Shown one piece after another: positions 3,373 through 60,285 of a DNA stretch of 60,285 nucleotides (its first letter is position 1; each line of letters begins with the position of its first letter). The notes under the pieces are model-generated. The model did no database searches and was not told the DNA's origin. It saw nothing but the letters and a program-made list of their open reading frames with translations. The translations under genes were made by a program, and so were the position numbers. The DNA comes from a virus. The DNA is taken from the IMG/VR virus record IMGVR_UViG_3300006865_000001, positions 1 to 60,285 of that record, one strand, 5' to 3'.

Positions 3373-5736
3373 TTAATTGCCCTGTGCGGCAGCTGGTGTA
3401 GCCCACCCTGCCACCACTCCACCACCTGTCTGATCGTCGCAGTACCGCTTGATCACCGCGCCCGTGTCCCTGAGTTGTGACAGCAGTGAGCCTCGCAGCA
3501 CGTACAGGACCGGCTTGCCGTTGTCGAACGGGATCACACTGTGGCAGCGGCCCCCGGGCATGGATGGATGGGTAATGTACCCCATCTTACGCAGCATGTC
3601 GGCACGCTTGTTGCGCGGCAGCTTACCAGCTACCCGCTTGTCGTCCAGCAGCCGACCGAGAGCGAGTGAGCTGATCCAGCCGCCAGCGAATCCAGGGCGC
3701 CCCTCAGCAATAGCTTCCATCACCTCCTGCTCGATGCCACCGAGCGAGTTAGCCAGCGCCTCGGCTGTGCTACTGGTCTCGGGTGCCCTGTGGCTACGTG
3801 TTGCCGGGTTGAGTTCATCCGGTATCTGGTATGCACGGAGCCATCCATTGACTATCTCGAAACCCTCGTCACGCAACCAGTTGTACAGGTCGGGGAAGTA
3901 GTTGCCCGCCATACCGTCACGCTCCAGATCACCCGGCTCCTGTTGGGCGGTGAAGAATACGGCATAGCGGCGGTCGGTGCCGGTCTTCCTGATGGCATCC
4001 TTATGGTTGCTGCACAGGACAAAATTGGCCCGGTTGTCGGCGGTCCTCTGGTCTTGCCCCTTGGCCTGTATCTCCATCCGGTCGTTGGTGATCATCGGCT
4101 TCAGCGTCTCGATCAGGTCGGCGCGGTCGGCGGTGTAGACTTCCTCGATGCCGATGAACAGCTTGCCCTGTAGCCAGGAGTTGAATTTATTACTGAGGTC
4201 TTGTGCGTTGGGCAGGTGGGTGTAGCGGTTGCCGACAGCCCATGCGAGGCAGCGGGTGATGAGCGATTTACCGTTGCCCTCCATACCCACCAGCAACGGT
4301 GCCCATTGGAATTTGACCCCCGGATGCTGCACGATGGCAGCCAGATACGCCAGCAGGATGGCTTGGTCACCGGGGTCAGGCAGCATACGGGTCACATGAT
4401 CGATGAACCTGGTGGCATCGCCCTGACGAGATGGTGTGGTGATCGGCACGTAGGTATTGACCAGTTGCCGACCTTCCTCGTTGACGGTCACACCAGGCGG
4501 GCATTCGGGTCGGAAGCAGATGTCGTGGACCTTGGGGAAGCTGACTGCTTGGTTCTGCGTGAAGCCCTCCCATGCTGATTTGGTCGGCTTGGTATTGTCG
4601 GTGGTGATCATGAATTGGTGGCCCCCATAGAATGCGTTGAACCGGCTCTGATCCATCAGGCTGCCGTCAGGACACAGGATGGCGTTGGGTAACAGGACGT
4701 AGGTCATGCCCTTGAAGAAATCTACCAGACCGTTGCTGGTGAGCAGCTGAGTGCCAGTGCGGAGTTGCGGGCCGGCGTCGGTGGTGGCTGCTGGCTCAGG
4801 GGCCGGTTGGCTGTAGACGTTCTGGCACAGCCGGACCGCTTTGCCGATTGTCACCTGAGCGTAAGTCAGACCGCCACCAGCCCCCCTGTCCCATTTGTCC
4901 CTCATGCGGGCCGACTGCCGGAACAGCCTATCGATGCGCTCACAGTTCCTGCCTGTCCAGAATGCCAGATGGCTGCATAGCGCGGCGTCGGCGGCACTGG
5001 AGTCGTCGCCATAGCACTCGTCGGCAGCAGCAGCATCGGACCAGAGCGTCTGGAGTGTGGCTTTGCCGAGGAATGCACCTTGAGTCGACAGGTGGGCACG
5101 GTTCATCCTGGACACCAATTCATTATCATCATCGGGACCAGTATAGGTGGGGTCAGGCTCAGTGGTCCAGGTGGCCGGCGCGTCGGTGGGCAGGAACGTC
5201 GGGGTGAAGTAGCGGGCGACCGTGGCGTCAAGGGCGGCCTGGGCGTTGTATGCACTGGAGCCGGTGGCGCCTGTGCCAGTGACGGCACAGAATCGCTTGC
5301 CTGTGTAAAGATCGGCGTCTTGGTCAGGTCCACGTAGTTGGATACGGTGGGTCGGGCGGCTGGTGTAACTGCCGATGATGTGGATACCCTGACCGGACAG
5401 GCTGACCTCGGTGTAGCAGCCAGCGAACGTGGCGCATAACTCATGGGTCAGAGCATTCCACTCGCCGTTGGGTAATTTTGCGTTGTCGATGTCGATGAAG
5501 AACAGCGGGTCGTTGTCGGTAAAGACGAAGCCGATCCCCCGCCCGACTACCCCCGGTTCATTGCCGATGCTGCCGGCGAGGGCTACCTGGGCATCGGTGT
5601 ACGACATGTGGATAGTCGTGTCATGAGCGTCATACCGACGACCGGTGACCGGATGCAAGGGGAACTTGTCTGTCTTGTTTACGCGCGTTGGTGATGGAAA
5701 TGCGTTCCACAAAATCCACTGGTTATACCTGTGCAT
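3373..5736 (-). CDS. Primase-helicase: prim-pol N-terminus, SF3 helicase C-terminus
   Basis: This 787-residue protein would prime and unwind DNA at the phage fork. The N-terminal half looks like a prim-pol domain: FIDIDN at residues 80-85 supplies metal-binding aspartates and SGQGIHI at 114-120 the conserved histidine motif. The C-terminal half is a superfamily 3 / D5-type ATPase, with Walker A GMEGNGKS at 484-491, Walker B LFIGIEE at 526-532, sensor NFVLCSN at 571-577 and arginines at 589-590. The start at 5736 follows GGGAG with a TGTGACC-type spacer. Together with the family B polymerase on the other arm it forms the core replisome. Confidence 0.9.
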   Translation of the reverse strand: MHRYNQWILWNAFPSPTRVNKTDKFPLHPVTGRRYDAHDTTIHMSYTDAQVALAGSIGNEPGVVGRGIGFVFTDNDPLFFIDIDNAKLPNGEWNALTHELCATFAGCYTEVSLSGQGIHIIGSYTSRPTHRIQLRGPDQDADLYTGKRFCAVTGTGATGSSAYNAQAALDATVARYFTPTFLPTDAPATWTTEPDPTYTGPDDDNELVSRMNRAHLSTQGAFLGKATLQTLWSDAAAADECYGDDSSAADAALCSHLAFWTGRNCERIDRLFRQSARMRDKWDRGAGGGLTYAQVTIGKAVRLCQNVYSQPAPEPAATTDAGPQLRTGTQLLTSNGLVDFFKGMTYVLLPNAILCPDGSLMDQSRFNAFYGGHQFMITTDNTKPTKSAWEGFTQNQAVSFPKVHDICFRPECPPGVTVNEEGRQLVNTYVPITTPSRQGDATRFIDHVTRMLPDPGDQAILLAYLAAIVQHPGVKFQWAPLLVGMEGNGKSLITRCLAWAVGNRYTHLPNAQDLSNKFNSWLQGKLFIGIEEVYTADRADLIETLKPMITNDRMEIQAKGQDQRTADNRANFVLCSNHKDAIRKTGTDRRYAVFFTAQQEPGDLERDGMAGNYFPDLYNWLRDEGFEIVNGWLRAYQIPDELNPATRSHRAPETSSTAEALANSLGGIEQEVMEAIAEGRPGFAGGWISSLALGRLLDDKRVAGKLPRNKRADMLRKMGYITHPSMPGGRCHSVIPFDNGKPVLYVLRGSLLSQLRDTGAVIKRYCDDQTGGGVVAGWATPAAAQGN

Positions 5737-10639: not shown

Positions 10640-11638
10640 ATGCAACCGAGCGTTAGTTTTACCGTACCACTGACTGCCGCAATACTGCGGGCCATGTTGA
10701 GCGACCTGGAGGGTACGGCTGCCAGCGCCGAGTGCTGCGGGGGCAAGAGTTGTACGGACACCCCGGCCACCACGATCACTGCCAATGGATTAACCGGTGT
10801 GACCGCAGCAACCGATCCTGACTGCGGCGTAGCTGAGCCGCTGACCAGTGGCATCGTGGAGCATGACAACCCGTTTGTGGCCATGCCGGCCCTGACGCCG
10901 CAGCCGATCACCGAGCCATTCATCCTGACCCCCGAGGGCATAGTGCCGGTCACCGATGTGACCGATCCGTTTCTGCTACAGGTAGCCGCACCCCCTGTGC
11001 TGCCGCTCCCCATGCCCCCTGTGATCACCCCACCCCTCGCCCCGCCGACCGGCGTCAAGGTGGATGGTGAGGGTCTGCCGTGGGACCAGCGTATCCACGT
11101 ATCCACCAAGACATTCCGTCAGTCTGACAACACCTGGAAGCTCCGTAAGGGCGTCGATGCTACGCTGGTCGAGGCCGTAAAAGCCGAACTGCGTGCTTGC
11201 ATGGCTGTGCCGGTGCCCGCCAGCCCGCTCACCACAGCCCTCAATACAATAGCGACACTGGACCTCGCCCCGGCGGGCGTACCGCACCTGTCGGGTAGCT
11301 GGACACCCGAGACCGGTCATGTGGTCGGCATCCCTGTGCCGCCTGTGCCAGTGGTCACACCGCCTGTACCAGCACCCCCCGTGACCGTCGCTCCCGAGCC
11401 ACCGCCCGTCGTCACACCACCCCCTGCACCCGGCGCCATGTCCTTCACCGACTTTGTGACCTGGGCCACCGGTAAGATGGTTGCCAAGGAAATCAGCCGG
11501 ACGCAGCTTGAGGAAGCCTGCAAGAGCGAGGGGATCAGCAGTATGCCCATGCTCCAGAACCGTCCCGACCTGATACCGGCTATCCATAAGTTCCTGGAGA
11601 GCATCTGCCTGCCGGCCAGCAGCGTGGGAGGTGTGTGA
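10640..11638 (+). CDS. Conserved phage protein with Pro-rich linkers (332 aa)
   Basis: It has a helical N-terminus and a central segment (GLPWDQRIH, then STKTF and WKLRKGVD) that matches a motif seen in many phage proteins encoded next to RecB-like exonucleases. Long Pro/Val/Thr linkers and a C-terminal helical domain (SFTDFVTWATGKM onward) follow. The linkers suggest tethered domains. The enzymatic role is unknown. The start at ATG 10640 follows AGGGAGGG. Confidence 0.8.
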   Translation: MQPSVSFTVPLTAAILRAMLSDLEGTAASAECCGGKSCTDTPATTITANGLTGVTAATDPDCGVAEPLTSGIVEHDNPFVAMPALTPQPITEPFILTPEGIVPVTDVTDPFLLQVAAPPVLPLPMPPVITPPLAPPTGVKVDGEGLPWDQRIHVSTKTFRQSDNTWKLRKGVDATLVEAVKAELRACMAVPVPASPLTTALNTIATLDLAPAGVPHLSGSWTPETGHVVGIPVPPVPVVTPPVPAPPVTVAPEPPPVVTPPPAPGAMSFTDFVTWATGKMVAKEISRTQLEEACKSEGISSMPMLQNRPDLIPAIHKFLESICLPASSVGGV

Positions 11639-11640
11639 CC

Positions 11641-12210
11641 ATGAGCCGACTGACCAAGGACCAGAAGACCACTATCATCAACAAGGTTCTCAACAAGACC
11701 TTTACCGAGCGACAGGAAGCATTGGTAGCCGGGTTTAAAACACTCGGTGACAGTATTTGGGAATCGTTGTACGGTACTCACCGTAAGGTGATCGCTGCAA
11801 TGCCTGAGAGCTTTCTATCGATGGTAACCAGTGTGCCGGTCCACTTCGACGGCGCTAGTGGTCGGTGGGGTTACGACCACATCCCGATGAGCGGTGAACA
11901 ACCGGTACCGTCAAGGGTTGCCAGAAACAATCAGGCCGCTGCATCCTATGATCAGACCGAGCCGTTCGCCATCGAGCACAAGCGGTTGTCCGAGGTCAAG
12001 GACAAACTCAGCAAGGACCGTGAACTGCTCAAGCGTAGCCTCGACGGTATGTTCTACTCGGTCAACACCCGGAAACAAGCACTCGCTGCATGGCCCGAGT
12101 GCGAACCGTTCCTGCCGGCTGATGTGCCGGTGATCAAGAATCTACCGACCTTGCCGACCCACGATCTGAACGCTCTGATCGCCAGCATGTCGGCCACAGG
12201 AGGTGCGTAG
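11641..12210 (+). CDS. Nmad5-like protein (189 aa)
   Basis: The N-terminal pattern (LTKDQKTTIINKVLNK, then a long helix with FTERQEALVAGF and a PESFL turn) resembles Nmad5, a domain of phage nucleotide-modification contexts; the match is by eye and tentative. ATG 11641 is preferred to GTG 11635 because GGAGG lies upstream with a TGTGTGACC spacer. The gene ends one base into the next start. Confidence 0.55.
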   Translation: MSRLTKDQKTTIINKVLNKTFTERQEALVAGFKTLGDSIWESLYGTHRKVIAAMPESFLSMVTSVPVHFDGASGRWGYDHIPMSGEQPVPSRVARNNQAAASYDQTEPFAIEHKRLSEVKDKLSKDRELLKRSLDGMFYSVNTRKQALAAWPECEPFLPADVPVIKNLPTLPTHDLNALIASMSATGGA

Positions 12211-24465: not shown

Positions 24466-25389
24466 TTAAAAAGCAAGCAATCCTTGTGGGTCGAACGGGT
24501 CGGTTACCCACTGCAACACTTCCTTCATCCCGAGTTGGTTCATGCAGTATTTATACTCGTCAGGGTGTGTGACCATCATTCGGTCAAATCGCCCTGGTTT
24601 TGGTTCCATGTGACAACCGAACGCACAGAACATGCAGCCGGTTCGGTTATACCCCATGTCATACACTGAGCAGTAAGGCACATTGTTGCTCTTGAGATAA
24701 AACCAGACATCTTTCTCAAGCATGATACTCATCGGGCGGGATTGAATCTTTTTCTTATCGAAAGCGTTACAGCCAAATTTCAGATAGTCTTTAAGTCGTA
24801 ATCGGCTGTCACACGCCATCGTGCCAATGAAAGGTTTACGTCCAGTTTCCTTCTCGTATTTCACGAAAGGTGCTTTCTTCATGTAGTAGCAGCATTGTTC
24901 GCTAATCTTGAACGGGGCGTCCAGCAGGTACTTCCATTTCTCAGGGATCACGCCGGCCGACTGTTTCTTGCCTGTCATGAAGTCAATGCCGCCGTTCAAC
25001 CGGTAGTCACGTTGCGCCTGGGATTTAGTGTTCTGATAACGATTGATCGCCGTAGCGACTTCTTTACTGACGACAGGATAACCGAATTTTTCAATGACCT
25101 GATCGAACCGGTGCTTGGGTTTGAGCCACGTGACATTGGTGTGAGTTGCAACATGATCGCGTATCTGTCTGAACTCAAGACCTGTATCTGAGAAAACTAA
25201 GGGTACTTCTGGGTAAAGACGACGCACCCTGTCACGTAGAAACTCGGAATCCTTGCCACCGGAATAAGCGACATACACCTGACCATTCTGTGACTCGTAG
25301 AACTCCTGTATTTTGATGTCCATGTACCGTAGTTTGTACTCAAACGGTAAATGCTGGCGTTCTGTCAATTCCTGATGAGTCACACTCAC
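24466..25389 (-). CDS. PAPS reductase-family (adenylyl-PP-loop) enzyme (307 aa)
   Basis: The PP-loop SGGKDS lies at residues 43-48. Many cysteines follow (SEQCCYYMKK, CMFCAFGC), which could carry an iron-sulphur cluster or zinc. The family includes PAPS reductases and the DndC sulphur-transfer enzyme; phage members are common but their substrate is unclear. It starts with GTG 25389, behind AGGGGG. It has its own promoter at 25413-25441. Its C-terminus ends with DPFDPQGLLAF, a motif shared with three unrelated proteins here. Confidence 0.8.
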   Translation of the reverse strand: MSVTHQELTERQHLPFEYKLRYMDIKIQEFYESQNGQVYVAYSGGKDSEFLRDRVRRLYPEVPLVFSDTGLEFRQIRDHVATHTNVTWLKPKHRFDQVIEKFGYPVVSKEVATAINRYQNTKSQAQRDYRLNGGIDFMTGKKQSAGVIPEKWKYLLDAPFKISEQCCYYMKKAPFVKYEKETGRKPFIGTMACDSRLRLKDYLKFGCNAFDKKKIQSRPMSIMLEKDVWFYLKSNNVPYCSVYDMGYNRTGCMFCAFGCHMEPKPGRFDRMMVTHPDEYKYCMNQLGMKEVLQWVTDPFDPQGLLAF

Positions 25390-30949: not shown

Positions 30950-31732
30950 CTACCAACTCATCGAGGACGTATCCCCGAAGCTGCCGAAGTCTACGTTGTT
31001 GATATTCCCACCAGCCTGATTGTAGGTCTGACCGTTTGCCAGATAATTCTGATACATCTGGTTCTGGTTGTAGGCACCATATGCGTTGATGCCGGTCTGG
31101 ATGCCAGAGTTGAGTATGTTGCTCTGGTTGGCTGCACCCTGCATCCGTATGTTGCCCTGGTTGGCTGCTCCGGTCATCAGCGTGTTGCCGATCCCTTGTG
31201 CCATCCCCATGCCGGCAGCACCGAGCTGTGTGGCTGCGGTCTGCCCTGTGCCGGCTACCCCTGACAGACGGTTGAAATTAGTGTTCTGAGCATTTAAACC
31301 GCTGTTGAACTGGTCCATCTGGCTACCGTAAGCCCGCTGATATGCTGCACCGTACTCCTGGCTCCCGAGTTCCTGACCGTAGTTCTGCAGGGCCACGCCG
31401 AGGTTGCCGCTGCCGAGGTTGCCGCCCGCCGCACCGGCTGCCGTGATCGCATCCACACCTTGCTGCATTCGGAACGCATAACCCGGGTCTGTCTGCACCT
31501 TGCTCTGGTCGAACTGGAATGTGGGCGTCGATGCGAACTGACCACCAGGCTGGAGACCGGCACTGAGTTGGTTGACCGCCCCCGTGCCTGATGTGAGCCA
31601 CGGACGCATGTTATCCTGCGTTATGCCGAACTGTCTGCGCTGCTCGTCTACCGACTGACCGGATGCCTCAGCGTTTGACTCAGCGGCGTCCTCGGTTGCA
31701 TTAGCGCCCATGATACCGGATACTACGCTCAT
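30950..31732 (-). CDS. DNA-transfer/ejection-type virion protein (260 aa)
   Basis: The pattern is typical of podoviral DNA-injection proteins: an N-terminal helix, EQRRQFGITQDNMRPW, a DPGYAFRMQQGVDAI motif, LQNYGQELGSQEYGAAYQRA, then Gly/Asn/Gln-rich repeats (GAANQGNIRMQGAANQ). It is probably ejected with the genome. ATG 31732 lies 4 bases into the GNAT stop. Confidence 0.8.
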   Translation of the reverse strand: MSVVSGIMGANATEDAAESNAEASGQSVDEQRRQFGITQDNMRPWLTSGTGAVNQLSAGLQPGGQFASTPTFQFDQSKVQTDPGYAFRMQQGVDAITAAGAAGGNLGSGNLGVALQNYGQELGSQEYGAAYQRAYGSQMDQFNSGLNAQNTNFNRLSGVAGTGQTAATQLGAAGMGMAQGIGNTLMTGAANQGNIRMQGAANQSNILNSGIQTGINAYGAYNQNQMYQNYLANGQTYNQAGGNINNVDFGSFGDTSSMSW

Positions 31733-32172
31733 TTTAGTTCTCCTTCATAGTGCATCTCTAGCAAAGAGAGACCTTCCCGCTCATAGAATCGTTTGAGTTC
31801 ATCAGGCATAGAGCATGGTAGGTAGATCATGGCGAGGCGGGTAGCCCCTTGCTCTCTAGCCCACTGCTTGAACCGGCTGTAGAGTTTGATACCAGCGCCC
31901 CTGCGTCCAGCAGCCGTGTACCAGAACATCTCTATGGCCGTCAGTCTACCGCTCAATGGCTCGGGTGATACGATACCACCAATTCCCCCTGTGACCACGC
32001 CGGCTGGATCGACATCGAGGAATATGACGCCTATTTCGCTGGTCAGGGCACGTCGCCAGTATTCCATGTAATGATAGGCGTTGAACTCCATACCCGGGAT
32101 AATATCGGTGTACTCACGGGCGCATGGCAGGATACGCGGTATATCAGCGAGTGTGGCTTTGACCAGTGCCAT
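31729..32172 (-). CDS. GNAT-family acetyltransferase (147 aa)
   Basis: The fold is that of Gcn5-related N-acetyltransferases: N-terminal helices, the IGVIFLDVD strand, AIEMFWYTAAGRRGAGIK for the acetyl-CoA pyrophosphate loop (RRGAGI), and a final LERFYERxGL-like motif (RFYEREGL). It lies among virion genes beside two radical SAM enzymes, suggesting modification of a virion protein or host target. ATG 32172 follows GGAGGTAGC. Confidence 0.8.
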   Translation of the reverse strand: MALVKATLADIPRILPCAREYTDIIPGMEFNAYHYMEYWRRALTSEIGVIFLDVDPAGVVTGGIGGIVSPEPLSGRLTAIEMFWYTAAGRRGAGIKLYSRFKQWAREQGATRLAMIYLPCSMPDELKRFYEREGLSLLEMHYEGELK

Positions 32173-32173
32173 G

Positions 32174-33181
32174 CTACCTCCCGTTTAGTAACCCTGTGAC
32201 CACGAAATTATTCACCGATCCGTCATCTGCACGGTGGTATGGACCACAGTCTATGTCACATAGGTCCACGTTATTTATGTCATACCACGAAATGAGCATT
32301 AAGTGTTGATTTTTATGCTTGACATTCGCAAAAGATGTTTTGTTGTTCCGGTTCAGCAGCAACTCGGTGCCTGGGTCGCGGTCACATAGCCAGCGTAGCA
32401 TGTCGGAGATGTAGATGTGATTTGTCACACCGGCCTCAGCCCACACGTTGCTGGCAGCCTTGATTCGCAGGCTGAGTAACACATCACGGTATGCCCCGTA
32501 CACAGTCAGCGCGTCAGCCATCTGGTCAACGTGATCGATCACCCAAAATCCTGTATCGACCTGCAGACCCTGAGTACGGCATGATTCCAAGAATTCTATG
32601 TCTCGACCACCTGACTCCCTGTGGAATGACAGACCGGCATGGAGCAGTTTGCCGGTGCGCGGCAGGTTGGCGGTGCCGTTGGTACCATTGGTCAGCACAT
32701 AGGCGTCGGGGAGTTGTTCAAGAATGGTGGCGAGGTCAGGGTGCAAGGTAGGTTCGCCACCCGTCAGGATGATTGGGCCGAGGTCGCGGTGTGCCCGGGC
32801 CTCAGCTATGATGTCGGCTGCTGGTCGGTCGGCGGTGCCGGTTGGATGGTAGCAGTATTTACATTGCAGGTTGCACCTATCGGTTATGTCGATCATATAA
32901 CCATCGTAGATATTGGTGCAACCGAGGTCTCGGCAATACTGCCAGTACGCTGGATCGCGCTCGACCATGGCTGTGGTGGCACCGTGTTCAGGGCAAATCT
33001 TATGCATCCACACTGCGCTGTGGGTCAGATAGATCGCTGCCGGTATGACGGCGTGACAGGTGGGGCATAGGCTGGTGGTCATTGTGTGGGGCATGACGGG
33101 CTGCCTGTAGAGTTCTCGGCACTTCATGGTCGCTACTTCGGCGCTATCACCGTGCCTCGGCATCGGGTCGGATTTGATCAT
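32174..33181 (-). CDS. Radical SAM enzyme with N-terminal Cys-rich domain (335 aa)
   Basis: The cluster motif CNLQCKYC at residues 103-110 and GGEP at 141-144 show a radical SAM core. The N-terminal part (CPTCHAVIPA, VWMHKICPEHG) resembles the substrate domain of MJ0619/Tes-like enzymes that act on pterins or lipids; this subfamily hint is by eye. Extra cysteines near the C-terminus (CDIDCG) may hold a second cluster. It follows the B12-type radical SAM gene, so the pair probably acts in sequence. ATG 33181 follows TGGAGGGG. Confidence 0.85.
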   Translation of the reverse strand: MIKSDPMPRHGDSAEVATMKCRELYRQPVMPHTMTTSLCPTCHAVIPAAIYLTHSAVWMHKICPEHGATTAMVERDPAYWQYCRDLGCTNIYDGYMIDITDRCNLQCKYCYHPTGTADRPAADIIAEARAHRDLGPIILTGGEPTLHPDLATILEQLPDAYVLTNGTNGTANLPRTGKLLHAGLSFHRESGGRDIEFLESCRTQGLQVDTGFWVIDHVDQMADALTVYGAYRDVLLSLRIKAASNVWAEAGVTNHIYISDMLRWLCDRDPGTELLLNRNNKTSFANVKHKNQHLMLISWYDINNVDLCDIDCGPYHRADDGSVNNFVVTGLLNGR

Positions 33182-33203
33182 ACTCGTTCACCCCTCCAGG
33201 TGG

Positions 33204-34310
33204 TCATGACATTGGGTAGCAATTCATCCCCCTGTTTTCTGCGAACTGTTTGAACGTGCTGTTGAGCGAGGCGGCCTGCTCAATGGTCACACTCCGCTCT
33301 CGATACGCCGTGCCAAGGAACGGTTGGACCATGACGGGGAACACGTTATACCCTTGCGGTATCTCGGACAGCTCGTTCAGTATGTCCGAGTACGATTCGC
33401 CGGGTAGACCGAGCAGCACGTTGCCGTGGTACGGTATACCATGCCGGTGCAGGGTGTCCAGCGCCCGGGTGATCTGTTCGACGGTAACCTGCTTGCACAT
33501 CTCATCCAGTTTATCCTGTCGGAACGACTCGACCCCTATGACAAAATACTGACCGCCTGAGTTACGGAATGCCCGGGCCATCTCATCGTCGAATATATCA
33601 GCCCGTATAGCCGCCGACCATGCAAGACCCCGACCACGCATCCCCTGGCAGATTGCCATAAACCTACCGCGACTGGCATTGAGCGTGTTGTCATTAAATA
33701 CGACGCTGGTGATGCTGTATCGCTGCTGGTATAGGTCTATCTCTTGGAACACTGCTGCCAGCGACCGGCATTGGTAATGACATGTGTGGGCACAGAATCG
33801 GCAGGAATACGGGCAACCCCTGCTGGTCAGGATACCCATGTATCGGTGTGAATGGCGCCGATGATACTCCTGGATACCAAACCCCTCGTAATCGGGCAAC
33901 GGCAGGGTGTCGAGTCGCGGTCGGGTGCCATACAGGATACCCCGGTGGGTCAGCGACTGGCTGGCTACCACATCACCCTCACCAACCACCACGCAGTCAC
34001 AGTGGGGTAGCATCTGGTCAGGGGTGAATGCCGCCAGCGCACCGCCTACGACTGTGTGAACACCCGCCTCACGGCATATAGCAGCATCTCGGATGATATA
34101 TGGCAGGAACTCGGACCAGCCCGTGAACAGCACGACGTCCTGGCCCTGTATCTCGGCGGCAAAGTCGTAATCCCACAGGTTGTAATTCAAAACTTTGACA
34201 GTGTGACCGGCTTGCTTGAGTGCTGCACTGATCAGCATAAATCCGAGCGGGTAGCAGCACGGATCGTGGATGCTGACGGCATATTTATGGCTGACCAGTG
34301 TGACTTTCAT
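33204..34310 (-). CDS. B12-binding-type radical SAM enzyme (368 aa)
   Basis: An N-terminal Rossmann-like domain (residues about 1-125) in the place of a cobalamin-binding domain is followed by the radical SAM motif CPYSCRFC at 166-173. I see no DXHXXG cobalamin ligand. Family members methylate unactivated carbons or build lipids and peptides. ATG 34310 lacks a ribosome-binding site, and the -10 box of a good promoter lies 8 bases upstream, so the mRNA may be leaderless. Confidence 0.85.
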   Translation of the reverse strand: MKVTLVSHKYAVSIHDPCCYPLGFMLISAALKQAGHTVKVLNYNLWDYDFAAEIQGQDVVLFTGWSEFLPYIIRDAAICREAGVHTVVGGALAAFTPDQMLPHCDCVVVGEGDVVASQSLTHRGILYGTRPRLDTLPLPDYEGFGIQEYHRRHSHRYMGILTSRGCPYSCRFCAHTCHYQCRSLAAVFQEIDLYQQRYSITSVVFNDNTLNASRGRFMAICQGMRGRGLAWSAAIRADIFDDEMARAFRNSGGQYFVIGVESFRQDKLDEMCKQVTVEQITRALDTLHRHGIPYHGNVLLGLPGESYSDILNELSEIPQGYNVFPVMVQPFLGTAYRERSVTIEQAASLNSTFKQFAENRGMNCYPMS

Positions 34311-34318
34311 GGGTCGGC

Positions 34319-34347
34319 ATGATACGTGATGTCCAGATGAATGTCAA
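34319..34347 (-). promoter_or_regulatory. Promoter for the radical SAM genes
   Basis: Minus-strand TTGACA (34342-34347), exactly 17 bp, TATCAT (34319-34324). Transcription should begin at or within about two bases of ATG 34310. Confidence 0.7.
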
Positions 34348-34775
34348 TACACCACCATCAGCACGCCGGTTGCCGTCCGATACACTGCACCAGCGACCAG
34401 CCCACCGACCAGAGCAGCAGCGTTGTCGGCATGGACCGGCAGCGCGGTGAAATCGGGCACGGTGCCCAGTATCCCGTGGTCGAATGCCGCCTCATGCGCT
34501 GCCACCGCGCCGGCAACCTCACCGTCCACGTCCGCGAGTGTGACAGTCACATCGGCTGTGAGAGCATGACCATTGACCGTGCGGGTATCCGGTACGGCGC
34601 CTGTCACCTGGCTGGCTGTGTAGTCACCAGTCTCGGGGGTCACGGCACCAAACCGACCGTTGAAACCCGTGACCGCTCGGTCGAACGACTGCTGAAACCA
34701 TTGCAGCCATGCCGGCGTGGTGATACGGGTTGATGGTTCACCGTGTTTGAGGGGTGCTTCGACCGGCGCTCTCAT
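34344..34775 (-). CDS. Tail needle/fibre-like virion protein (143 aa)
   Basis: The central part (FNGRFGAVTPETGDYTASQVTGAV, then RTVNGHALTADVTVTLADV) is a motif of phage tail fibres. It lies directly downstream of the gp10-like gene, where P22 encodes its gp26 needle, but no long trimeric coiled coil is visible. ATG 34775 overlaps the upstream stop. Confidence 0.7.
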   Translation of the reverse strand: MRAPVEAPLKHGEPSTRITTPAWLQWFQQSFDRAVTGFNGRFGAVTPETGDYTASQVTGAVPDTRTVNGHALTADVTVTLADVDGEVAGAVAAHEAAFDHGILGTVPDFTALPVHADNAAALVGGLVAGAVYRTATGVLMVVY

Positions 34776-36523
34776 ACGGGCTGCACCACGTATCCGAGGA
34801 TTACCCGCTTACATGGCGAGCTGCAGCGTAGTTGGAACACCCTGTCCCGCGCTCGACCGAGCGACCGCCACACCAGCCGTTGCCGGTAATTGCCCGGGCC
34901 ACCCATACTGCGTGGGTACTCGTTGCTCCAGGTGTGACCGGCATCACGGCTGATACTCAGTGCCATGAGTGGTCGGACGGGTTGACCCAATACGATCACC
35001 TCCGGTGGTGAGGTATACCCGCTACCTGGGTTGGTCACCGTGATATTAACCACACTGCCGTATGCCAACGTGGCCGATGCCGTAGCGCCCGATCCGTTGC
35101 CATCCACTGACCGCAGTATCACCGTGACCTGGGGGGTCAGAGCGGTCATTACCTGACCGTCATCAAACGTGACTACTGTCCCATCGTTGTACAGTACGGC
35201 CTCATATTGGTCCCGATTGTCAATATAGTCGGCTCCCGGATATGTGACAGTCACACTAACCACACCACCCGACACGTCCAGTGCGGATAGTGCTGTCGCC
35301 GGTACAGCCGGTCCGTCCAGACCTACGCCTGACTCGATGGCTACTTGCAACTCGCCAATGAATATGTCGCCCATATCGGCATCGGCTAGGTGCTGAGTGC
35401 GTTGTAGACCGGTGATCGGCTGACCGGCGTCCGTATGGTACCGGCTACCCATCTCGTACAGCCGACCGCTCTGGTGGTCACCTACCAGATGCATTCCGTA
35501 GGATCGGACATAGCAGTTTGCTCTGTGCCTGCCGGTCGTGCCACCGCTGACCCGTTCATGCCACATCTGAGTGGTCAGATCGTAGACCCATGTCCAGTTG
35601 TCAACCGGATTGGTCAGGACGTAGAACGTATGACCCTCGTCACTGTAGCAGTACGCGAAGCATTGGGTCAGGTCGGTGGATTGGCTCATGTGCCATATAA
35701 TCGCTGGTGGGCTGACCACTGTCGGCATATAACCGTTCAGCATCACGACGCCGATGAAATTATCTCGCTCATGTGCCAGGAACAGGACCGATGAGCCACC
35801 GAGGGCGACCGACCACGGGGCGGGGGTGCCGTAGTTGATGACCGCGCCGGCCATCCGACTGTAAGGAAATCCGACACTGGTGGCGGTACCGTTGTTGTAA
35901 TATATCTCGGTGCTGAACTCCTTGATGAAGAATAGCTGCTGGTACAGGCTCAGGACTGTCTGCACCGAGTCGGGTGACGCTTGGATGGGCGCCGTGGCGA
36001 GGGGATTCCATGTCAACCCGTCGTAGATGTCGCTGGCGTATGCATTCATGGTGCCATCCACGCCGATAAAATAGCTGTCGATGAACACCAGATGGGTGAG
36101 CGGCATGGTGACGGTGGTGAATACCCCCGTGACCGTGTTGTAGATGTAGGTGTTCTCGCCGTCTGCGATAGCTATCTGGTTGCCACCGATCCCGTCAGCC
36201 AGCAGACCGTTCTGCGCCATGCTGACCCTGCCCGTGGAGGTGGTCAGGCTGCCGAGTGATAATGATACGGCGCCATCGGCGCTGACACGGACCAGCGCAT
36301 TGCTCTGGACAGCGTACAGCAGACCATCCGGCCCGGTGATCACACCCCGCACGGGGCTGGCGATGCCGGCTGAAAACAGACGTAGCCCGGGGGTGCCGAT
36401 GAGCATTGCTATGCTGGCGCTGCCCGGGGCATTGGTCAGTTCGGGGTACCAGTTGATCAGCCTGGCTGACTCTTGGTTGATGCTGCGGCCTGCGTAGGCT
36501 GATGGGATTGTGGGTAGACGCAT
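34772..36523 (-). CDS. P22 gp10-like tail hub / packaged-DNA stabilisation protein (583 aa)
   Basis: The N-terminus (MRLPTIPSAYAGRS, INQESARLINWYPE) is characteristic of the P22 gp10 family, the tail hub that plugs the portal and carries the needle. Beta-propeller-like repeats fill residues 40-400. Residues about 403-515 look like an insertion containing two related GGVVxxVTVxxPGxxY units; the family C-terminus resumes with LSISRDAGHTWSNE. ATG 36523 follows TAGGAG. Confidence 0.85.
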   Translation of the reverse strand: MRLPTIPSAYAGRSINQESARLINWYPELTNAPGSASIAMLIGTPGLRLFSAGIASPVRGVITGPDGLLYAVQSNALVRVSADGAVSLSLGSLTTSTGRVSMAQNGLLADGIGGNQIAIADGENTYIYNTVTGVFTTVTMPLTHLVFIDSYFIGVDGTMNAYASDIYDGLTWNPLATAPIQASPDSVQTVLSLYQQLFFIKEFSTEIYYNNGTATSVGFPYSRMAGAVINYGTPAPWSVALGGSSVLFLAHERDNFIGVVMLNGYMPTVVSPPAIIWHMSQSTDLTQCFAYCYSDEGHTFYVLTNPVDNWTWVYDLTTQMWHERVSGGTTGRHRANCYVRSYGMHLVGDHQSGRLYEMGSRYHTDAGQPITGLQRTQHLADADMGDIFIGELQVAIESGVGLDGPAVPATALSALDVSGGVVSVTVTYPGADYIDNRDQYEAVLYNDGTVVTFDDGQVMTALTPQVTVILRSVDGNGSGATASATLAYGSVVNITVTNPGSGYTSPPEVIVLGQPVRPLMALSISRDAGHTWSNEYPRSMGGPGNYRQRLVWRSLGRARDRVFQLRCSSPCKRVILGYVVQPV

Positions 36524-40258: not shown

Positions 40259-40630
40259 TTATTGCTGTTGCCATTCATGACCCCCCGACCCCGATGATAT
40301 GTTGACGAACGGCGTGGCGACGTTCTTGACCCGGGCGCCCAACCACGTCCCACCAAGTACGGTCACCTGCGGGTATGTGCCCTTGGTAGTGGTGGGCATG
40401 AGTCGTATCTTGCAATCGGACGGGCAGTACACATCGTATGCCAAAAACTCGGTCAGGTTGTAGGTCGCTGACCGGGCCACGCTGACCACCGTGGTGTACA
40501 GGCCGTTGGGTGACCACCCCTGCACGTAAGTCCCACGGTAGAGCAGCGACCCATCGCCTTGGTTCTCTGCAACAGCAGCGGTAACGGTCAGAGTGAGCAG
40601 TATTGCCAGAGTGAGCAGTATGCGGGTCAT
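40259..40630 (-). CDS. Secreted beta-rich protein (123 aa)
   Basis: The signal peptide MTRILLTLAILLTLTVTAAVA is followed by a 100-residue beta-rich domain with a Cys pair (YCPSDC). It is coupled to the gp4-like gene (TAATG) and followed by a spike gene that also has a signal peptide. It could cap or chaperone the spike; not recognised. Confidence 0.7.
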   Translation of the reverse strand: MTRILLTLAILLTLTVTAAVAENQGDGSLLYRGTYVQGWSPNGLYTTVVSVARSATYNLTEFLAYDVYCPSDCKIRLMPTTTKGTYPQVTVLGGTWLGARVKNVATPFVNISSGSGGHEWQQQ

Positions 40631-41325
40631 TAATATTCTCCTGTCAGAATGTTATATTGCCCCTGTATCACGCCAGGCACATCAGTCCGGATGATCATGG
40701 GTCGGGCGTTCATGTTCTCGATGACCTTCATGGTCCTCTCAGCCATCATACGTATGTCGGGTGGCGGGGGGCCGGTACGTCCGAGTGGTCTCCAGCAAGC
40801 CATCGCACCATTGTAGGTCAACATAGCGAGGTAGGCGTCAGGAAATGTCACTGTGTCGGTCAGACCGCTGAACTGTGTCAGGTATTTCAAACTGTCGATG
40901 GTCAGTGTATCAGCAGCATCTGGTGCGGGATTCAGGTGAATGGTACCGAGCGGCGTGGCAGTCTGAGTGGCGCCGGCATCATAGTATAGTTCCCGCGGTC
41001 GTCCGCTGACCGTATCCCATCTGTTGTACTCACCCTGCGTCGTGACCTCGACCGGATCGTCACCGATGTAGGCTGCGGTGATATTGATCGGTTTGGAGGT
41101 GTTGAAATTGGCGCCTACACCGATAGTGTACGATGACTGACCGGCCACCAGCGTGAACGACTCGGTAGTGGGAGTGAGCTGGACCAGATGCCGAGCCGAC
41201 AGGCTGCCAAGTAGCATGTTGACATGCCGCTTGACCTTCTGCATATCACTGGCCTCGGGCTGCTCGTCCAGGGTCACGACGCCTACGACCTCAAGGATCG
41301 CGATGAATAGTTCTCGTACCTGCAT
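40630..41325 (-). CDS. P22 gp4-like head-tail adaptor (231 aa)
   Basis: ATG 41325 sits behind GAGG with the TGTGACC spacer. The helical N-terminus (LFIAILEVVGVVTLDE), ESFTLVAGQSSYTIG and TFPDAYLAMLTYNGAMAC segments match the tail accessory factor family of P22 gp4, which binds under the portal and closes the packaged head. The gene order between coat and gp10 agrees. Confidence 0.85.
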   Translation of the reverse strand: MQVRELFIAILEVVGVVTLDEQPEASDMQKVKRHVNMLLGSLSARHLVQLTPTTESFTLVAGQSSYTIGVGANFNTSKPINITAAYIGDDPVEVTTQGEYNRWDTVSGRPRELYYDAGATQTATPLGTIHLNPAPDAADTLTIDSLKYLTQFSGLTDTVTFPDAYLAMLTYNGAMACWRPLGRTGPPPPDIRMMAERTMKVIENMNARPMIIRTDVPGVIQGQYNILTGEY

Positions 41326-41339
41326 GGTCACACCTCGCT

Positions 41340-41528
41340 CTACGGCTCGCACCGGATGCCAACAAGTCTGTTGTTCACGCCGTTAACCATCATTTTCGGC
41401 TTCAATCCGGCATCTGTGCATTCTTTACACGCTTTGATCACCTCGGACCGGGGCATTTCCTCTTTGACATCACACCCCGTCAAAATGACCATACATGCGA
41501 TAACCAGTATTAATTTGATCATTGTCAT
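41340..41528 (-). CDS. Small lipoprotein (62 aa)
   Basis: ATG 41528 overlaps the upstream stop (ATGA). The hydrophobic stretch IKLILVIACMVILTGC ends in a good lipobox; the mature part (about 42 residues) has a cysteine motif ACKECTDAG. The longer open frame upstream is a shadow. A possible superinfection-exclusion or envelope role is inference only. Confidence 0.65.
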   Translation of the reverse strand: MTMIKLILVIACMVILTGCDVKEEMPRSEVIKACKECTDAGLKPKMMVNGVNNRLVGIRCEP

Positions 41529-41973: not shown

Positions 41974-42639
41974 TCACCCCTCCGTCAGATACGTATGGAA
42001 ATTACCATGCCGTCCAGCGTGTGTAAATGAAATATTGCACACGACACACATCTCCCCGCCTATTTCCCTCCACAGGCGGCAAAATGCGTAGTCTTCACCG
42101 ACCCACCGACCCCCGCTCACCCCTTGAGGGAACAGGTCGTACAGTGTGCCTGTGAGTACGCCGTTCTCATCGTATTCCTCGTACCGCTGACCCGGGTAGC
42201 TCGCTATCATGCGTTCCAGCGCCGAGCGGTGGATGCACAGGAAGCCGGTCGGTACCGCTGCGGCAGCCACACAGCCATCAGCACGCTGCACGGGGCAGTC
42301 ATCGGGCGTGGTGTGGATGACAACCGGGAAGCGTAGCGGTTCGGTCTTCATCGGGTAGATGCCGGCCACCACTTCACCTGGGGTCTCGATCACCTTGAGC
42401 GCGGCGGTCGCCGGCCAGGATATGTCGTCATCCAGAAAGAACAGCACATCGGCATCGGAGTCGAGGAAATGCTTGACAATCTGGTTACGGGCGGTCTGCA
42501 CGTAACAGCAACCCGTAAGCATGTAAAATTCAGCCTGGTGACCGCGTTCAGCGCACAGTGCTATCGTTGCCTCAAGCGAGTCGAGGAACGGCGCGTAGGT
42601 GATGCCTCGGTATGATGGGGTGGCGAAGAGTATTTTCAC
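41974..42639 (-). CDS. GT-A type glycosyltransferase-like protein (221 aa)
   Basis: The N-terminal KILFATPSYRG strand, RNQIVKHFLDSDADVLFFLDDDI with the metal-binding DDD, and the downstream WVGEDYAFCRLWRE motif match phage GT-A (GT2-like) enzymes. It may decorate a virion protein or cell-surface sugar. It starts with GTG 42639, without a strong ribosome-binding site. Confidence 0.8.
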   Translation of the reverse strand: MKILFATPSYRGITYAPFLDSLEATIALCAERGHQAEFYMLTGCCYVQTARNQIVKHFLDSDADVLFFLDDDISWPATAALKVIETPGEVVAGIYPMKTEPLRFPVVIHTTPDDCPVQRADGCVAAAAVPTGFLCIHRSALERMIASYPGQRYEEYDENGVLTGTLYDLFPQGVSGGRWVGEDYAFCRLWREIGGEMCVVCNISFTHAGRHGNFHTYLTEG

Positions 42640-48662: not shown

Positions 48663-51572
48663 TTACCCCCATTCACCCTTCACCCTACCACTGGCACCGC
48701 TCCCCTGTGCCATGAGTGCGGTCACACTGACCACCTTGCGCTTTGCGTACCTGTGAAACGGGAACACTCGGAACATATCGTACCCATAGCTGACAATGTT
48801 CAGTATGTCCGAGTGCCCGAACCCAAATTGATCCATTTCCTGCTTCATCTTGTCGATGTAATCCGGTGCGATCCCGGTGCTGTAATACAGGTTACCGTTG
48901 TTCAGCGGCCATTCCAACGCGCTCGATATGCGGTTTTCCAGTTTGCGGCCGGCCGGCCTGAGCAGGAACAGGTTGCCGTGCTGCACCGAGAGCTTACGAC
49001 CCTTGGCGGCTAGAGCATCGACCACATGTATCTCGGTGGTACTCAGGGAGACCTTTTCAACACCTACCTGCATGATCATGCCGTGTTTCAGGTACATCCT
49101 GACGATGGTATCGATTGCCTGTGAATGCGTGAGTCTGTCGGCAACCAGGTCTTCTACACATACGTCCGAGATACCCAGGTCGTCGTCGGTCGCTTCATCG
49201 CCGTTGCGCTTGGCGAGGCTGTCGCTCGGGCAGATGCTGACCACGCCGATGGCCCATAGGTCGCCTGGGCCGCCGACGTTGGTGTCTGTGCCGCCCGCTT
49301 GGTCTACCACCAGGAATTTGTACCGATCGGCCCATTTGCCGGTGCGCAGGAATGCCGGCTCGATGCGGTTGAGCATGGATTTGTCGAGGGTGATCGTGTC
49401 CACAGGTGCTGGGTTGCACAGGTACTGGCTGTCGAAGTTCTTGCCCGACTTCTCGATACATGCCTGCAGGTACTCAGGGCTGAATAGAACCGGTTTGCCT
49501 GTTCGGGTACCGTCGTGTGTGCAGGGTTTGATAATCAGTCGGTAGACTGGTGTGCCATCCAGCTTCTTTTTGTCCCTGATGCGGATCAGGGGGCCGTGGA
49601 AATGGTAATAGGTACCGTGGATAAGTTCCGTGCCACCCTGGCGACCGAGTGAGAATGACATTTCAAACGAGTTGAAACACAGATTCATCTGGTCGGCTGA
49701 TTTAGCGATGTCGAACGTCTCCACGTCATCGTAAATGCGGTGGTCGGCATGGCCACCTATAGGCATCCCCTCGACCAATCCAAACGCCTCCACAGTCTTC
49801 TCACGGCGGCTGGCCGACTTCCTTTTGACCACAATGCCGTTCTGCAACGACCATGAAGGCGACTCGTACCCCGGGTTGCTGTAGAAAATCTCAGGGAATG
49901 CCCAAATCAACAGTGGACGCTCAAAGGTCTCCTTGATAGCGGTCAAAAACTTGGCCGCAGCGTCTTTTTTGTAGCTGAAAATGAAGGTACAACAGTCGGG
50001 ATCGTTGATCACACGCTTGATTGTCAGTGCGACCGTGCGTATGGTTGAGTTGTGTGTGGTCACCATGTTCTTGCCGATCAAGTACAAGCCATCGGGTCGG
50101 TCAACCTGGATGCAGGATACCGGTATCGGTTCCACGGCCACACAGGATTTGATGAACCTTTTAGCTTTACGGATACCGTCTTTGCACTTAACCAGTTTCC
50201 TTTCCAACCTGAATACCGGGAAGATGGTGTACGCCTGGAAAGAGACCTGAAAAAAAATGTAAGGTAGACCATTGACCGTCGATTTATGCTGCCTGCGCCT
50301 CGGTTTCAGACCCAACCCGGTCGCCAGTTCAGTAAAATCGTCTATCAGTCGCTCGTTTATGTTGCAGAATGTCGCGGTTCCTCTTGTGTCAACCGTACCA
50401 TCCGTGTCCATCATCCCCTGTAGCAAAGCCAGCCGTTGCTCAACAGAACCTTTGAAGAACGCTCTCGGGATGTGCTTTTCGTTGTCGTAAAGTAGCCCTA
50501 ATTTCTTGAGTTCCAGACCTAGTGATTTGGGTTTCGGCTCAGTTGTTGGCTTTTTATTTTTACAACCAGCACAACGCTTGATCCCTTTGTTTTCGTAGTA
50601 TCCAACCTCGCCCATATTGTGCCCGTTAAGACAAATTTTAGACCGGTCGGTATCGAATGCTACAGTCAGACAGTTGTCTTTCTTGGCAGCAAATTGCAGA
50701 TTGTGACCCGCCGCTTTAAAATGCTTTTCAAATGACGGGTAATCGGTATTGGAACAAGTAAACCGTGCCGATGCTGAGTGACCGTCGCCAAGCCACGCGC
50801 CCATAACATAGGGGTCTACCGTCAGGTTTGCTGTCGGGAACTGGATCGGCTGGTTTACATTGACAGAGAAACGGCCATCTGGCAGATGCTCATGTGTGGC
50901 TATTTCCCGCGTTGTGGTCACACGGGTCTTGCCTGATCTTGTGACTTCCCATAGGTGGTCGCCGCTGCAAACGACGCTGTATCCATCATCAAACGTCACT
51001 CTGTAGCAGTCAGCCTCATTGAACACCTCGGTCTTACCGACGACCTTACATGGCTGCCCATCAGGTCCAAACACCCTGTCGCCAGCAACCAGATCACCGT
51101 GGTTCTTCCACCCTTTCGTGGTGAATACCGGCTCCAGCAGGTCAATAGCCTTGAAGTGTTCGCGGCTCTCGATGTCCAGTATGTCGGTTGCACTCAGCCC
51201 ACCATCGGGCGTACTTTCTTCCAATTCACGGCAACTATCGATCACATAGGGGTTGTTACACAGGTCGAGCGGTACTTCCATGACAAACGCCACGATGTAG
51301 AACAAATCTTTGGCGATGAGCATGCGCTGTGCACCCTTGGCACGGGCCTCACGGTCGTGGTCCTCACCGCCAGCGATATCGCGGAAAATGTCCTCGTACC
51401 GAAATTTATACCATGATTTATACGGAAAATCAGGATGTTTGGTCAACTCCTGAATATCGTCACCCTGCAGTTTGTGTGACAGACCAAGTTTTTTACGCAA
51501 CTCCAGCAACGTAGCGTCATATACGCTCTTGCAAGGTGCTATTTCAGGATGTGGGACGAAATTAACAGCCAC
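48663..51572 (-). CDS. terL: Terminase large subunit precursor containing an intein (969 aa)
   Basis: The DNA-packaging motor. The N-extein ends LDIESREHFK and the C-extein begins STIRTVALTI; spliced together they restore a phage Walker A of the REHFKST type, so the intein sits between the P-loop Lys and Ser. The C-extein continues with the ATPase (CTFIFSYKKDAAAKFL), DHRIYDDVE and an RNase H-like nuclease (KFLVVDQAGG, VCVEDL, VGVEKV). GTG 51572 is chosen since it limits overlap with the HNH gene and has GAGGCGG upstream; ATG 51617 is an alternative. Splicing gives about 600 residues. Confidence 0.9.
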   Translation of the reverse strand: MAVNFVPHPEIAPCKSVYDATLLELRKKLGLSHKLQGDDIQELTKHPDFPYKSWYKFRYEDIFRDIAGGEDHDREARAKGAQRMLIAKDLFYIVAFVMEVPLDLCNNPYVIDSCRELEESTPDGGLSATDILDIESREHFKAIDLLEPVFTTKGWKNHGDLVAGDRVFGPDGQPCKVVGKTEVFNEADCYRVTFDDGYSVVCSGDHLWEVTRSGKTRVTTTREIATHEHLPDGRFSVNVNQPIQFPTANLTVDPYVMGAWLGDGHSASARFTCSNTDYPSFEKHFKAAGHNLQFAAKKDNCLTVAFDTDRSKICLNGHNMGEVGYYENKGIKRCAGCKNKKPTTEPKPKSLGLELKKLGLLYDNEKHIPRAFFKGSVEQRLALLQGMMDTDGTVDTRGTATFCNINERLIDDFTELATGLGLKPRRRQHKSTVNGLPYIFFQVSFQAYTIFPVFRLERKLVKCKDGIRKAKRFIKSCVAVEPIPVSCIQVDRPDGLYLIGKNMVTTHNSTIRTVALTIKRVINDPDCCTFIFSYKKDAAAKFLTAIKETFERPLLIWAFPEIFYSNPGYESPSWSLQNGIVVKRKSASRREKTVEAFGLVEGMPIGGHADHRIYDDVETFDIAKSADQMNLCFNSFEMSFSLGRQGGTELIHGTYYHFHGPLIRIRDKKKLDGTPVYRLIIKPCTHDGTRTGKPVLFSPEYLQACIEKSGKNFDSQYLCNPAPVDTITLDKSMLNRIEPAFLRTGKWADRYKFLVVDQAGGTDTNVGGPGDLWAIGVVSICPSDSLAKRNGDEATDDDLGISDVCVEDLVADRLTHSQAIDTIVRMYLKHGMIMQVGVEKVSLSTTEIHVVDALAAKGRKLSVQHGNLFLLRPAGRKLENRISSALEWPLNNGNLYYSTGIAPDYIDKMKQEMDQFGFGHSDILNIVSYGYDMFRVFPFHRYAKRKVVSVTALMAQGSGASGRVKGEWG
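50049..51149 (-). other. Intein with LAGLIDADG homing endonuclease inside TerL
   Basis: 367 residues. The N-terminal block starts AIDLLEPVFTTKGWKNHGDL (alanine instead of the usual cysteine, as in some phage terminase inteins); block B lies near VVCSGDHLWEV; the C-terminal block ends LYLIGKNMVTTHN with Ser as the +1 residue. The two dodecapeptide motifs VMGAWLGDGH and LALLQGMMDTDG mark the homing nuclease. A CLNGHN...CAGC zinc module lies between them. The DNA is AT-richer than the exteins, in line with transfer. Confidence 0.9.
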
Positions 51573-52077
51573 TCTGTGCCGCCTCGGTTTGGGTGATATG
51601 TCTCCAGCGTTGACCATTCTTAAGCTTACTGATTGTTCTTCGATTAACCGGATAATCCTGTGCTATTTGACCATTGTCACGCGGGTCGTTTATGATTTTG
51701 ATCACATCCTCGGGTGTGAGTTTAGCATTGTACCGTGATTCACCACGACTCTCGCGCTGTTTTGCTCTCATATCCAGAATATTGTCAAGATTGCTACCGA
51801 GAGTCAGGTGTTCTGGATTAACGCAGCCGGGTGTGTCACATTTGTGCATAACACAGGTGCCGTGAAACCCTTCACCTTCCGGTATTGGACCAATGTGGAA
51901 TTCGTAGGAAAGTCGGTGGGCTTTGTAGTCCTTGCCACCATGTCTGAGATGACCATAACCCTTCTGGTCAGTAGAGGCGGTCCAGAGCCAACAGCCTGTC
52001 CAAAAGTCCAGTTTGAACTTGTCCATGAAACTGTCTCTGAGTGAACCGTTGATACGTTTTGCGCGGGGTTTCTTCAT
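51562..52077 (-). CDS. HNH homing-type endonuclease (171 aa)
   Basis: An HNH_3-type nuclease: GCWLWTASTDQKGYGHL, YKAHRLSYEFHIGPIPEG, then the metal site VMHKCDTPGCVNPEHL and a C-terminal helix-turn-helix-like recognition region (EDVIKIINDPRDNGQIAQDY onward). ATG 52077 is set by GGAGG 8 bases upstream. It overlaps TerL and is a free-standing neighbour of the intein, suggesting the TerL locus is a target of two homing elements. Confidence 0.85.
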   Translation of the reverse strand: MKKPRAKRINGSLRDSFMDKFKLDFWTGCWLWTASTDQKGYGHLRHGGKDYKAHRLSYEFHIGPIPEGEGFHGTCVMHKCDTPGCVNPEHLTLGSNLDNILDMRAKQRESRGESRYNAKLTPEDVIKIINDPRDNGQIAQDYPVNRRTISKLKNGQRWRHITQTEAAQSGC

Positions 52078-60162: not shown

Positions 60163-60285
60163 GTCGATCGGAGCTCCACCTCCAGGTCGATCGGAGCTCC
60201 ACCTCCAGGTCGATCGGAGCTCCACCTCCAGGTCGATCGGAGCTCCACCTCCAGGTCGATCGGAGCTCCACCTCCAGGTCGATCG
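60163..60285. repeat. Right copy of 23-bp tandem array
   Basis: Five full units and a partial one, in register with the left array so that the last 107 bases equal the first 107. The window stops mid-unit. In a circular genome the two arrays are one array of unknown copy number. The stretch 60076-60162 before it shows nothing but AT-rich promoter upstream sequence. Confidence 0.95.

Follow-up and report, generated by a model that had tools for sequence, protein, structure and literature searches.

Genes for radical S-adenosylmethionine (SAM) enzymes in phages are usually classed as auxiliary metabolism, and the viral genome analysed here raises the question of what such genes do when they are fixed in a neck/ejection operon, beside one constant partner that they accompany across phages with unrelated heads. 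The genome, that of an uncultured bacterial virus, is IMG/VR virus record IMGVR_UViG_3300006865_000001, and the window means the whole stretch of 60,285 nucleotides. A check of the open reading frames (ORFs) read from this sequence found three consecutive intact frames on the minus strand, between the gene in the position of the P22 needle and the first ejection protein, as a sequence-only reading of the window had described. They encode a cobalamin-type radical SAM protein (rSAM1), a Tes/GDGT-MAS-like radical SAM protein (rSAM2) and a GNAT acetyltransferase. The cassette and its neighbours are as follows.

33204..34310, minus strand: rSAM1, a compact protein of 368 amino acids with B12-binding and radical SAM domains; CX3CX2C cysteines C166/C170/C173; further invariant C18 and C221
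32174..33181, minus strand: rSAM2, 335 amino acids, Tes/GDGT-MAS-like; C39-X2-C42-X20-C63-X2-H66; CX3CX2C at 103/107/110; probable true start at 33082
31729..32172, minus strand: GNAT acetyltransferase, 147 amino acids; phrog_1249; acetyl-CoA loop RGxG retained
30950..31732, minus strand: first ejection protein, P22 gp7-type; phrog_598 'DNA ejection', 2.6e-30; overlaps the GNAT stop codon
34344..34775, minus strand: small tail gene at the place of the P22 needle; PHROG matches, to tail proteins, all weak
34772..36523, minus strand: gp10-type head-closure protein Hc3; phrog_578, 1.3e-85
40630..41352, minus strand: tail-protein gene in gp4-like position; phrog_12985/phrog_10775; common to rSAM1 phages

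The gene order is P22-like (gp4-like, gp10, needle, rSAM1-rSAM2-GNAT, gp7-type ejection protein), with the GNAT standing where P22 has gp14 and T7 has gp13.

Recurrence and conservation of the radical SAM genes beside the GNAT

Relatives were collected from scans of viral contigs and a genome collection; they are mostly metagenomic contigs, some of them fragments, and the near-identical records L005, L006 and L007 were counted once. rSAM1 is present in 11 further distinct loci besides the window, and an additional scan for it returned zero new records. The scan for rSAM2 yielded 3 distinct loci without such an rSAM1 (L091, L092 and L094), so that radical SAM genes were found in 15 distinct loci (7 with rSAM1 only, 3 with rSAM2 only and 5 with both). 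Where both are present (the window, L001, L008, L014 and L026), rSAM2 lies between rSAM1 and the GNAT, and in L014 a gene resembling family 2 glycosyltransferases (GT2-like) is also located inside the cassette. In all rSAM1 loci, rSAM1 precedes the GNAT within the tail/ejection stretch and follows gp10 and the tail genes wherever those were identified. The order is gp10, tail, rSAM2, GNAT and ejection in L091, and gp10, ejection, GNAT, rSAM2 and the next ejection-position gene in L092 and L094. Despite these differences in order and in the kind of radical SAM enzyme, a phrog_1249-type GNAT is directly abutted by a radical SAM gene in every distinct locus (15/15). The two frames usually overlap or lie within 1-2 nucleotides of each other, and the proteins are probably co-translated. 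The sequence-only reading had proposed a neighbourhood survey of this kind; the radical SAM genes recur with the GNAT at the same module in divergent phages, and the co-occurrence is not lost.

The same reading had taken the trio to be one inserted set. This was rejected because the GNAT is found alone and rSAM1 and rSAM2 are found apart; the two radical SAM genes are separately gained additions that come and go independently. The GNAT is an old, ordinary resident of the podovirus ejection module, also without a radical SAM gene (SIO1, other Zobellviridae, L028 and L029, the last two with the GNAT in the same module). A GNAT-family query matched 38 phage records. In SIO1, phage KZY1 and Lentibacter ICBM2 the gene is immediately flanked by tail genes on one side and internal virion genes on the other; in Pam1 it is within the needle/injection genes, and in some autographiviruses elsewhere, ahead of the portal. 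It has already been likened to T7 gp13 in work on cobaviruses (PMC6775973). The position is the same as that of T7 gp13 and P22 gp14; profile comparison with hhalign against these single-sequence targets gave no significant match.

Conservation within the module is highest for rSAM1, which is also under stronger purifying selection than its neighbours. Mean pairwise identity over ten loci was 56% for rSAM1, 41% for the GNAT and 32% for both gp10 and the ejection protein, and rSAM1 remains 44-58% identical across phages whose gp10 proteins share ~20%. The ratio of nonsynonymous to synonymous substitution rates (dN/dS), which applies to the close clade only, with synonymous sites near saturation, was 0.07-0.16 for rSAM1, 0.18-0.33 for gp10 and 0.20-0.48 for the ejection protein. 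Trees of gp10 and of the ejection protein strongly supported a clade of L001, L009, L011 and L013, and the approximately unbiased (AU) test on rSAM1 did not reject this clade (p 0.265). Long vertical retention of rSAM1 is therefore possible, lateral transfer is not demonstrated, and recent lateral transfer between phage groups is unsupported. Clustering of all ORFs from the rSAM1 phages identified gp10, the gp4-like protein, the gp7-type protein, the GNAT and rSAM1 as the widely common genes, and their capsid and portal genes as sets dissimilar in sequence. Even where the heads of the phages are unrelated, rSAM1 goes with the neck/ejection genes.

Outside the carriers, related sequences were scarce. 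A member of the phage rSAM1 clade scored 650 bits, compared with 165 for the best other match in 297 genomes of the phylum. A cellular source cluster for rSAM1 and rSAM2 was sought there and none was found, the best matches being ordinary long B12-radical SAM proteins. The single match of rSAM2 outside the carrier, in G297, consists of a short chromosomal frame around which no phage genes were recognised. Against phage records, the window rSAM2 and the L014 rSAM1 gave zero matches each, and the window rSAM1 gave only 3 distant matches over less than half its length; rSAM1 as such is absent from cultured-phage records. A viral fold library yielded only longer or generic radical SAM proteins, among which the compact rSAM1 clade was not recognisable. 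Radical SAM genes of phages are already known, for example in viruses of anoxic ecosystems (PMC9723712). The suggestion that the trio belongs to an undescribed phage pathway agrees with the literature searched, a body with most subscription journals outside it, where no description of this gene arrangement was found.

Identity of the three proteins and their genomic context

rSAM1 belongs to the radical SAM superfamily by its CX3CX2C motif within the PF04055 domain (59.4 bits) and to class B by its N-terminal B12-binding Rossmann domain (PF02310, 52.7 bits; both above cut-off). Its AlphaFold model (pLDDT 88) gave full-length Foldseek matches to AprD4 (top), TsrM, MgmA, OxsB, CysS and TokK, with MiaB also close, and Elp3 matched as a generic fold only. 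The cluster cysteines are kept in 13/13 aligned rows, and C18 and C221 are invariant too; residues 16-19 form a DPCC motif in the cobalamin-domain loop, which contains C18. Against the NCBIfam models of named B12-radical SAM families (PhpK, HpnJ, BzaD, MgmA and others), the best score was 91.5 bits with a cut-off of 600. From its domains and modelled fold, rSAM1 is predicted to be a minimal class-B (methylcobalamin-type) radical SAM enzyme, which would bind cobalamin and transfer methyl groups.

rSAM2 matched both the HMPTM (MJ0619) zinc ribbon (PF23545, 58.4 bits) and PF04055 (38.2 bits) above cut-off. GDGT-MAS is its best match by sequence and by fold, the structure model being of low confidence (pLDDT 68) and too weak in parts for detailed use. 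The radical SAM cysteines are kept in 9/9 aligned rows, as are the cysteines of the rubredoxin-type CX2C-X20-CX2H motif, whose histidine is kept in 8/9. The nine-row alignment contains no second cysteine triplet corresponding to the N-terminal auxiliary [4Fe-4S] ligands of GDGT-MAS, and the C-terminal auxiliary-cluster ligands are mostly missing, with C312 alone invariant there (at most 1-2 conserved cysteines). In the NCBIfam test for Tes/GDGT-MAS, rSAM2 scored 64.3 bits versus a cut-off of 450. It is a shortened relative of Tes/GDGT-MAS, not a demonstrated member. Its start is probably 33082 rather than 33181, because aligned relatives begin just before the first CPxC. The GNAT fell just below its Pfam cut-off (19.1 versus 20.7 bits), and its membership of the phrog_1249 acetyltransferase family follows from the profile match (1.3e-12) and the acetyl-CoA loop. 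The assignments made from the bare sequence, a B12-type enzyme, an MJ0619/Tes-like enzyme and an acetyltransferase, are thus borne out by the family profiles, and the cluster-binding cysteines, whose loss would have spoken against the sequence-only reading as a whole, are retained.

The sequence-only reading had also given the cassette its own promoter, for which the candidate is the following.

34319..34347, minus strand: sigma-70-like site TTGACA-17-TATCAT upstream of rSAM1; weak, not conserved among relatives

The site (34347-34319) is present with 11/12 consensus matches, compared with a chance expectation of ~0.12 such sites per 12 kb. Its -10 box ends only 9 nucleotides ahead of the ATG, and in several relatives, unlike the window, rSAM1 overlaps or abuts the upstream gene; the putative promoter is therefore judged weak and not conserved.

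An exact direct repeat of 107 bp at both ends (1-107 = 60179-60285) indicates that the phage genome is probably complete. Elsewhere in the window, the terminase large subunit (48663-51617, minus strand) is unusually long at 984 amino acids and has a LAGLIDADG homing-endonuclease-like insertion, probably an intein. A PAPS-reductase-domain gene (24466-25389, minus strand; phrog_424, PF01507) adjoins ejection and lysis genes, a replication protein (3373-5736, minus strand) combines an NrS-1 polymerase-type HBD domain with VapE-like/DUF5906 domains, and an Nmad5 nucleotide-modification-associated domain is encoded at 11635-12210 (plus strand). Further radical SAM genes were observed in other phages. 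The record of L094, a phage with rSAM2 by its GNAT, has a second, longer B12-radical SAM gene of 424 amino acids (L117, 13092-15262, minus strand) beside a phrog_1574 gene and near the capsid gene. A different, larger phage (L118, 3350-9800, minus strand) has a B12-radical SAM gene next to a radical SAM gene, both set among apparent sugar-dehydrogenase and methyltransferase genes.

What the cassette may modify

Since distant relatives keep the arrangement, the radical SAM enzymes probably introduce a chemical modification into the virus particle or into another product of late infection. More specifically, we tentatively favour the view that a cassette assembled around the resident GNAT modifies a neck or ejection protein of the virion, late in infection and under anaerobic conditions. 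The cassette would be expressed late, within the assembly operon of the P22-like neck/ejection module, in hosts that are probably anaerobic bacteria; one carrier contig (L014) belongs to a Desulfobacterales metagenome-assembled genome, and the low-oxygen setting suggested from the sequence is plausible. The GNAT in the gp14/gp13 slot probably serves particle assembly. rSAM1 would most likely C-methylate, or otherwise radically alter, an unactivated carbon of a neighbouring protein, with gp10, the needle and the gp7-type protein, all encoded alongside, as candidate substrates, and rSAM2, an optional addition of the Tes/MJ0619 type, would act as a second radical SAM enzyme on this product or one close to it. 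A module protein is suggested as the target by four features taken together: probable late expression, the invariable pairing with the GNAT, the way rSAM1 follows the module, and the strong constraint. Conservation and linkage favour a virion protein. C-methylation in particular is suggested by class-B chemistry. The specific proposal that the cobalamin-type enzyme and the GNAT, sometimes with the Tes-like enzyme, place a C-methyl or other carbon-centred modification on the neck or ejection protein is held a little more loosely.

MgmA, one of the fold matches of rSAM1, C-methylates a glutamine of a protein (MCR), and a radical SAM gene required for MCR modification adjoins the mcr operon (PMC5943407). 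Methylated phage proteins have been detected by mass spectrometry in free virions of other phages, where the enzyme is apparently not a radical SAM enzyme (PMC13288928). The gp7-type ejection protein (30950-31732, minus strand) has an MSxxSG start that is conserved across otherwise divergent phages; that this start could suit N-terminal acetylation by the GNAT is a guess.

Several points weigh against modification of a virion protein. Neither gp10 nor the ejection protein showed a substrate peptide or a common motif peculiar to the rSAM1 phages, and in most phages the GNAT works without any radical SAM enzyme. That rSAM1 follows the module could be a result of linkage alone. In most rSAM1 relatives the linker is shortened and the GEG motif changed, and cobalamin binding may therefore be degenerate. 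Glycosyltransferase-like genes near the cassette in several carriers point elsewhere, and the main, serious rival starts from them, the window having one such gene.

41974..42639, minus strand: glycosyltransferase-like gene; phrog_1574; phrog_2456 glycosyltransferase, 7.6e-5; between capsid and gp4-like genes; possible partner only

According to this rival, rSAM1, with or without rSAM2, alters a sugar or polyprenyl-linked sugar together with phage glycosyltransferases and the GNAT, and the product decorates the virion or changes the host surface polysaccharide. Besides the window gene, phrog_1574 occurs in carriers G007, G008, G010 and G312, a GT2-like gene is located inside the cassette (L014) or upstream of it (L008), L009 has an O-antigen-ligase-like (Wzy_C) gene (1803-2834) between the capsid and gp4-like genes, and the best fold match of rSAM1, AprD4, has an aminoglycoside sugar as its substrate. 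However, several carriers (some of them fragments) yielded no glycosyltransferase-like gene, the position of these genes is not fixed, and phrog_1574 is common in unrelated cyanophages. We regard a glycan pathway as unlikely, while giving it real weight.

Somewhat less likely still is a role in host metabolism, in which the enzymes would synthesise or change a small molecule, cofactor or lipid of the host, the late module being only their place of expression. The closest solved relative of rSAM2 is a lipid enzyme, GDGT-MAS, and B12-type radical SAM enzymes act on small molecules of many kinds. Against this, the radical SAM genes are strictly linked to the GNAT and the ejection module, rSAM2 lacks the N-terminal and most C-terminal auxiliary-cluster ligands of GDGT-MAS, and late expression would better suit virion modification. 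Neutral or selfish cargo, with radical SAM genes that entered a permissive intergenic site and were carried along, would be consistent with their variable presence and with the alternation of rSAM1 and rSAM2, but is already disfavoured by purifying selection, the low dN/dS being accompanied by rSAM1 identities that far exceed those of gp10 and by the retention of all cluster cysteines; we consider it improbable. Hardly more credence, if anything less, is due to a split Elp3-like chemistry, in which acetyl-CoA bound by the GNAT would be turned into a radical by the adjacent radical SAM enzyme and then passed to a substrate, since the constant adjacency and the generic fold match to Elp3 are set against a fused enzyme in Elp3 and separate genes here, no Elp3-type C-terminal domain found in rSAM1, two unrelated radical SAM types pairing with the GNAT, and a GNAT that also exists alone.

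If the injection machinery is indeed what the cassette modifies, it would represent a new class of virion maturation, confined to anaerobic hosts, and would offer a testable context for the long-unexplained GNAT of podovirus ejection modules. To our knowledge, this would be the first radical SAM-modified virus particle.

Relation to known systems

Among reported phage radical SAM genes, the B12-type gene of Streptomyces phage SF3 is likewise phage-borne, but it adjoins a thymidylate kinase gene, lies outside any virion module and shares 26% identity over half the length. The class-B enzymes MgmA, TsrM, OxsB, CysS, TokK and AprD4 have the same succession of an N-terminal Rossmann B12-binding domain and a CX3CX2C radical SAM domain, whereas members of the rSAM1 clade are ~350-370 amino acids long compared with roughly 430-740 for the known enzymes, most have the shortened linker, and rSAM1 falls far under every NCBIfam family cut-off. 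The rubredoxin-type ligands of GDGT-MAS are C9X2C12X20C33X2H36 (PMC9433317), and rSAM2 has the identical spacing together with the radical SAM core, in relatives of ~300-315 amino acids versus ~500 for Tes/GDGT-MAS (MJ0619) proteins as represented by GDGT-MAS. The ejection-module GNATs of SIO1, Lentibacter ICBM2, KZY1 and Pam1 share the phrog_1249 family and the position beside internal virion/ejection genes, but those phages have no radical SAM neighbour. Finally, the window shares with P22 the gene order 4-10-26-14-7-20-16 and homologues of gp10 and gp7, and differs from it in having a GNAT, with no significant profile match to gp14, in the gp14 position and the added radical SAM genes beside it.

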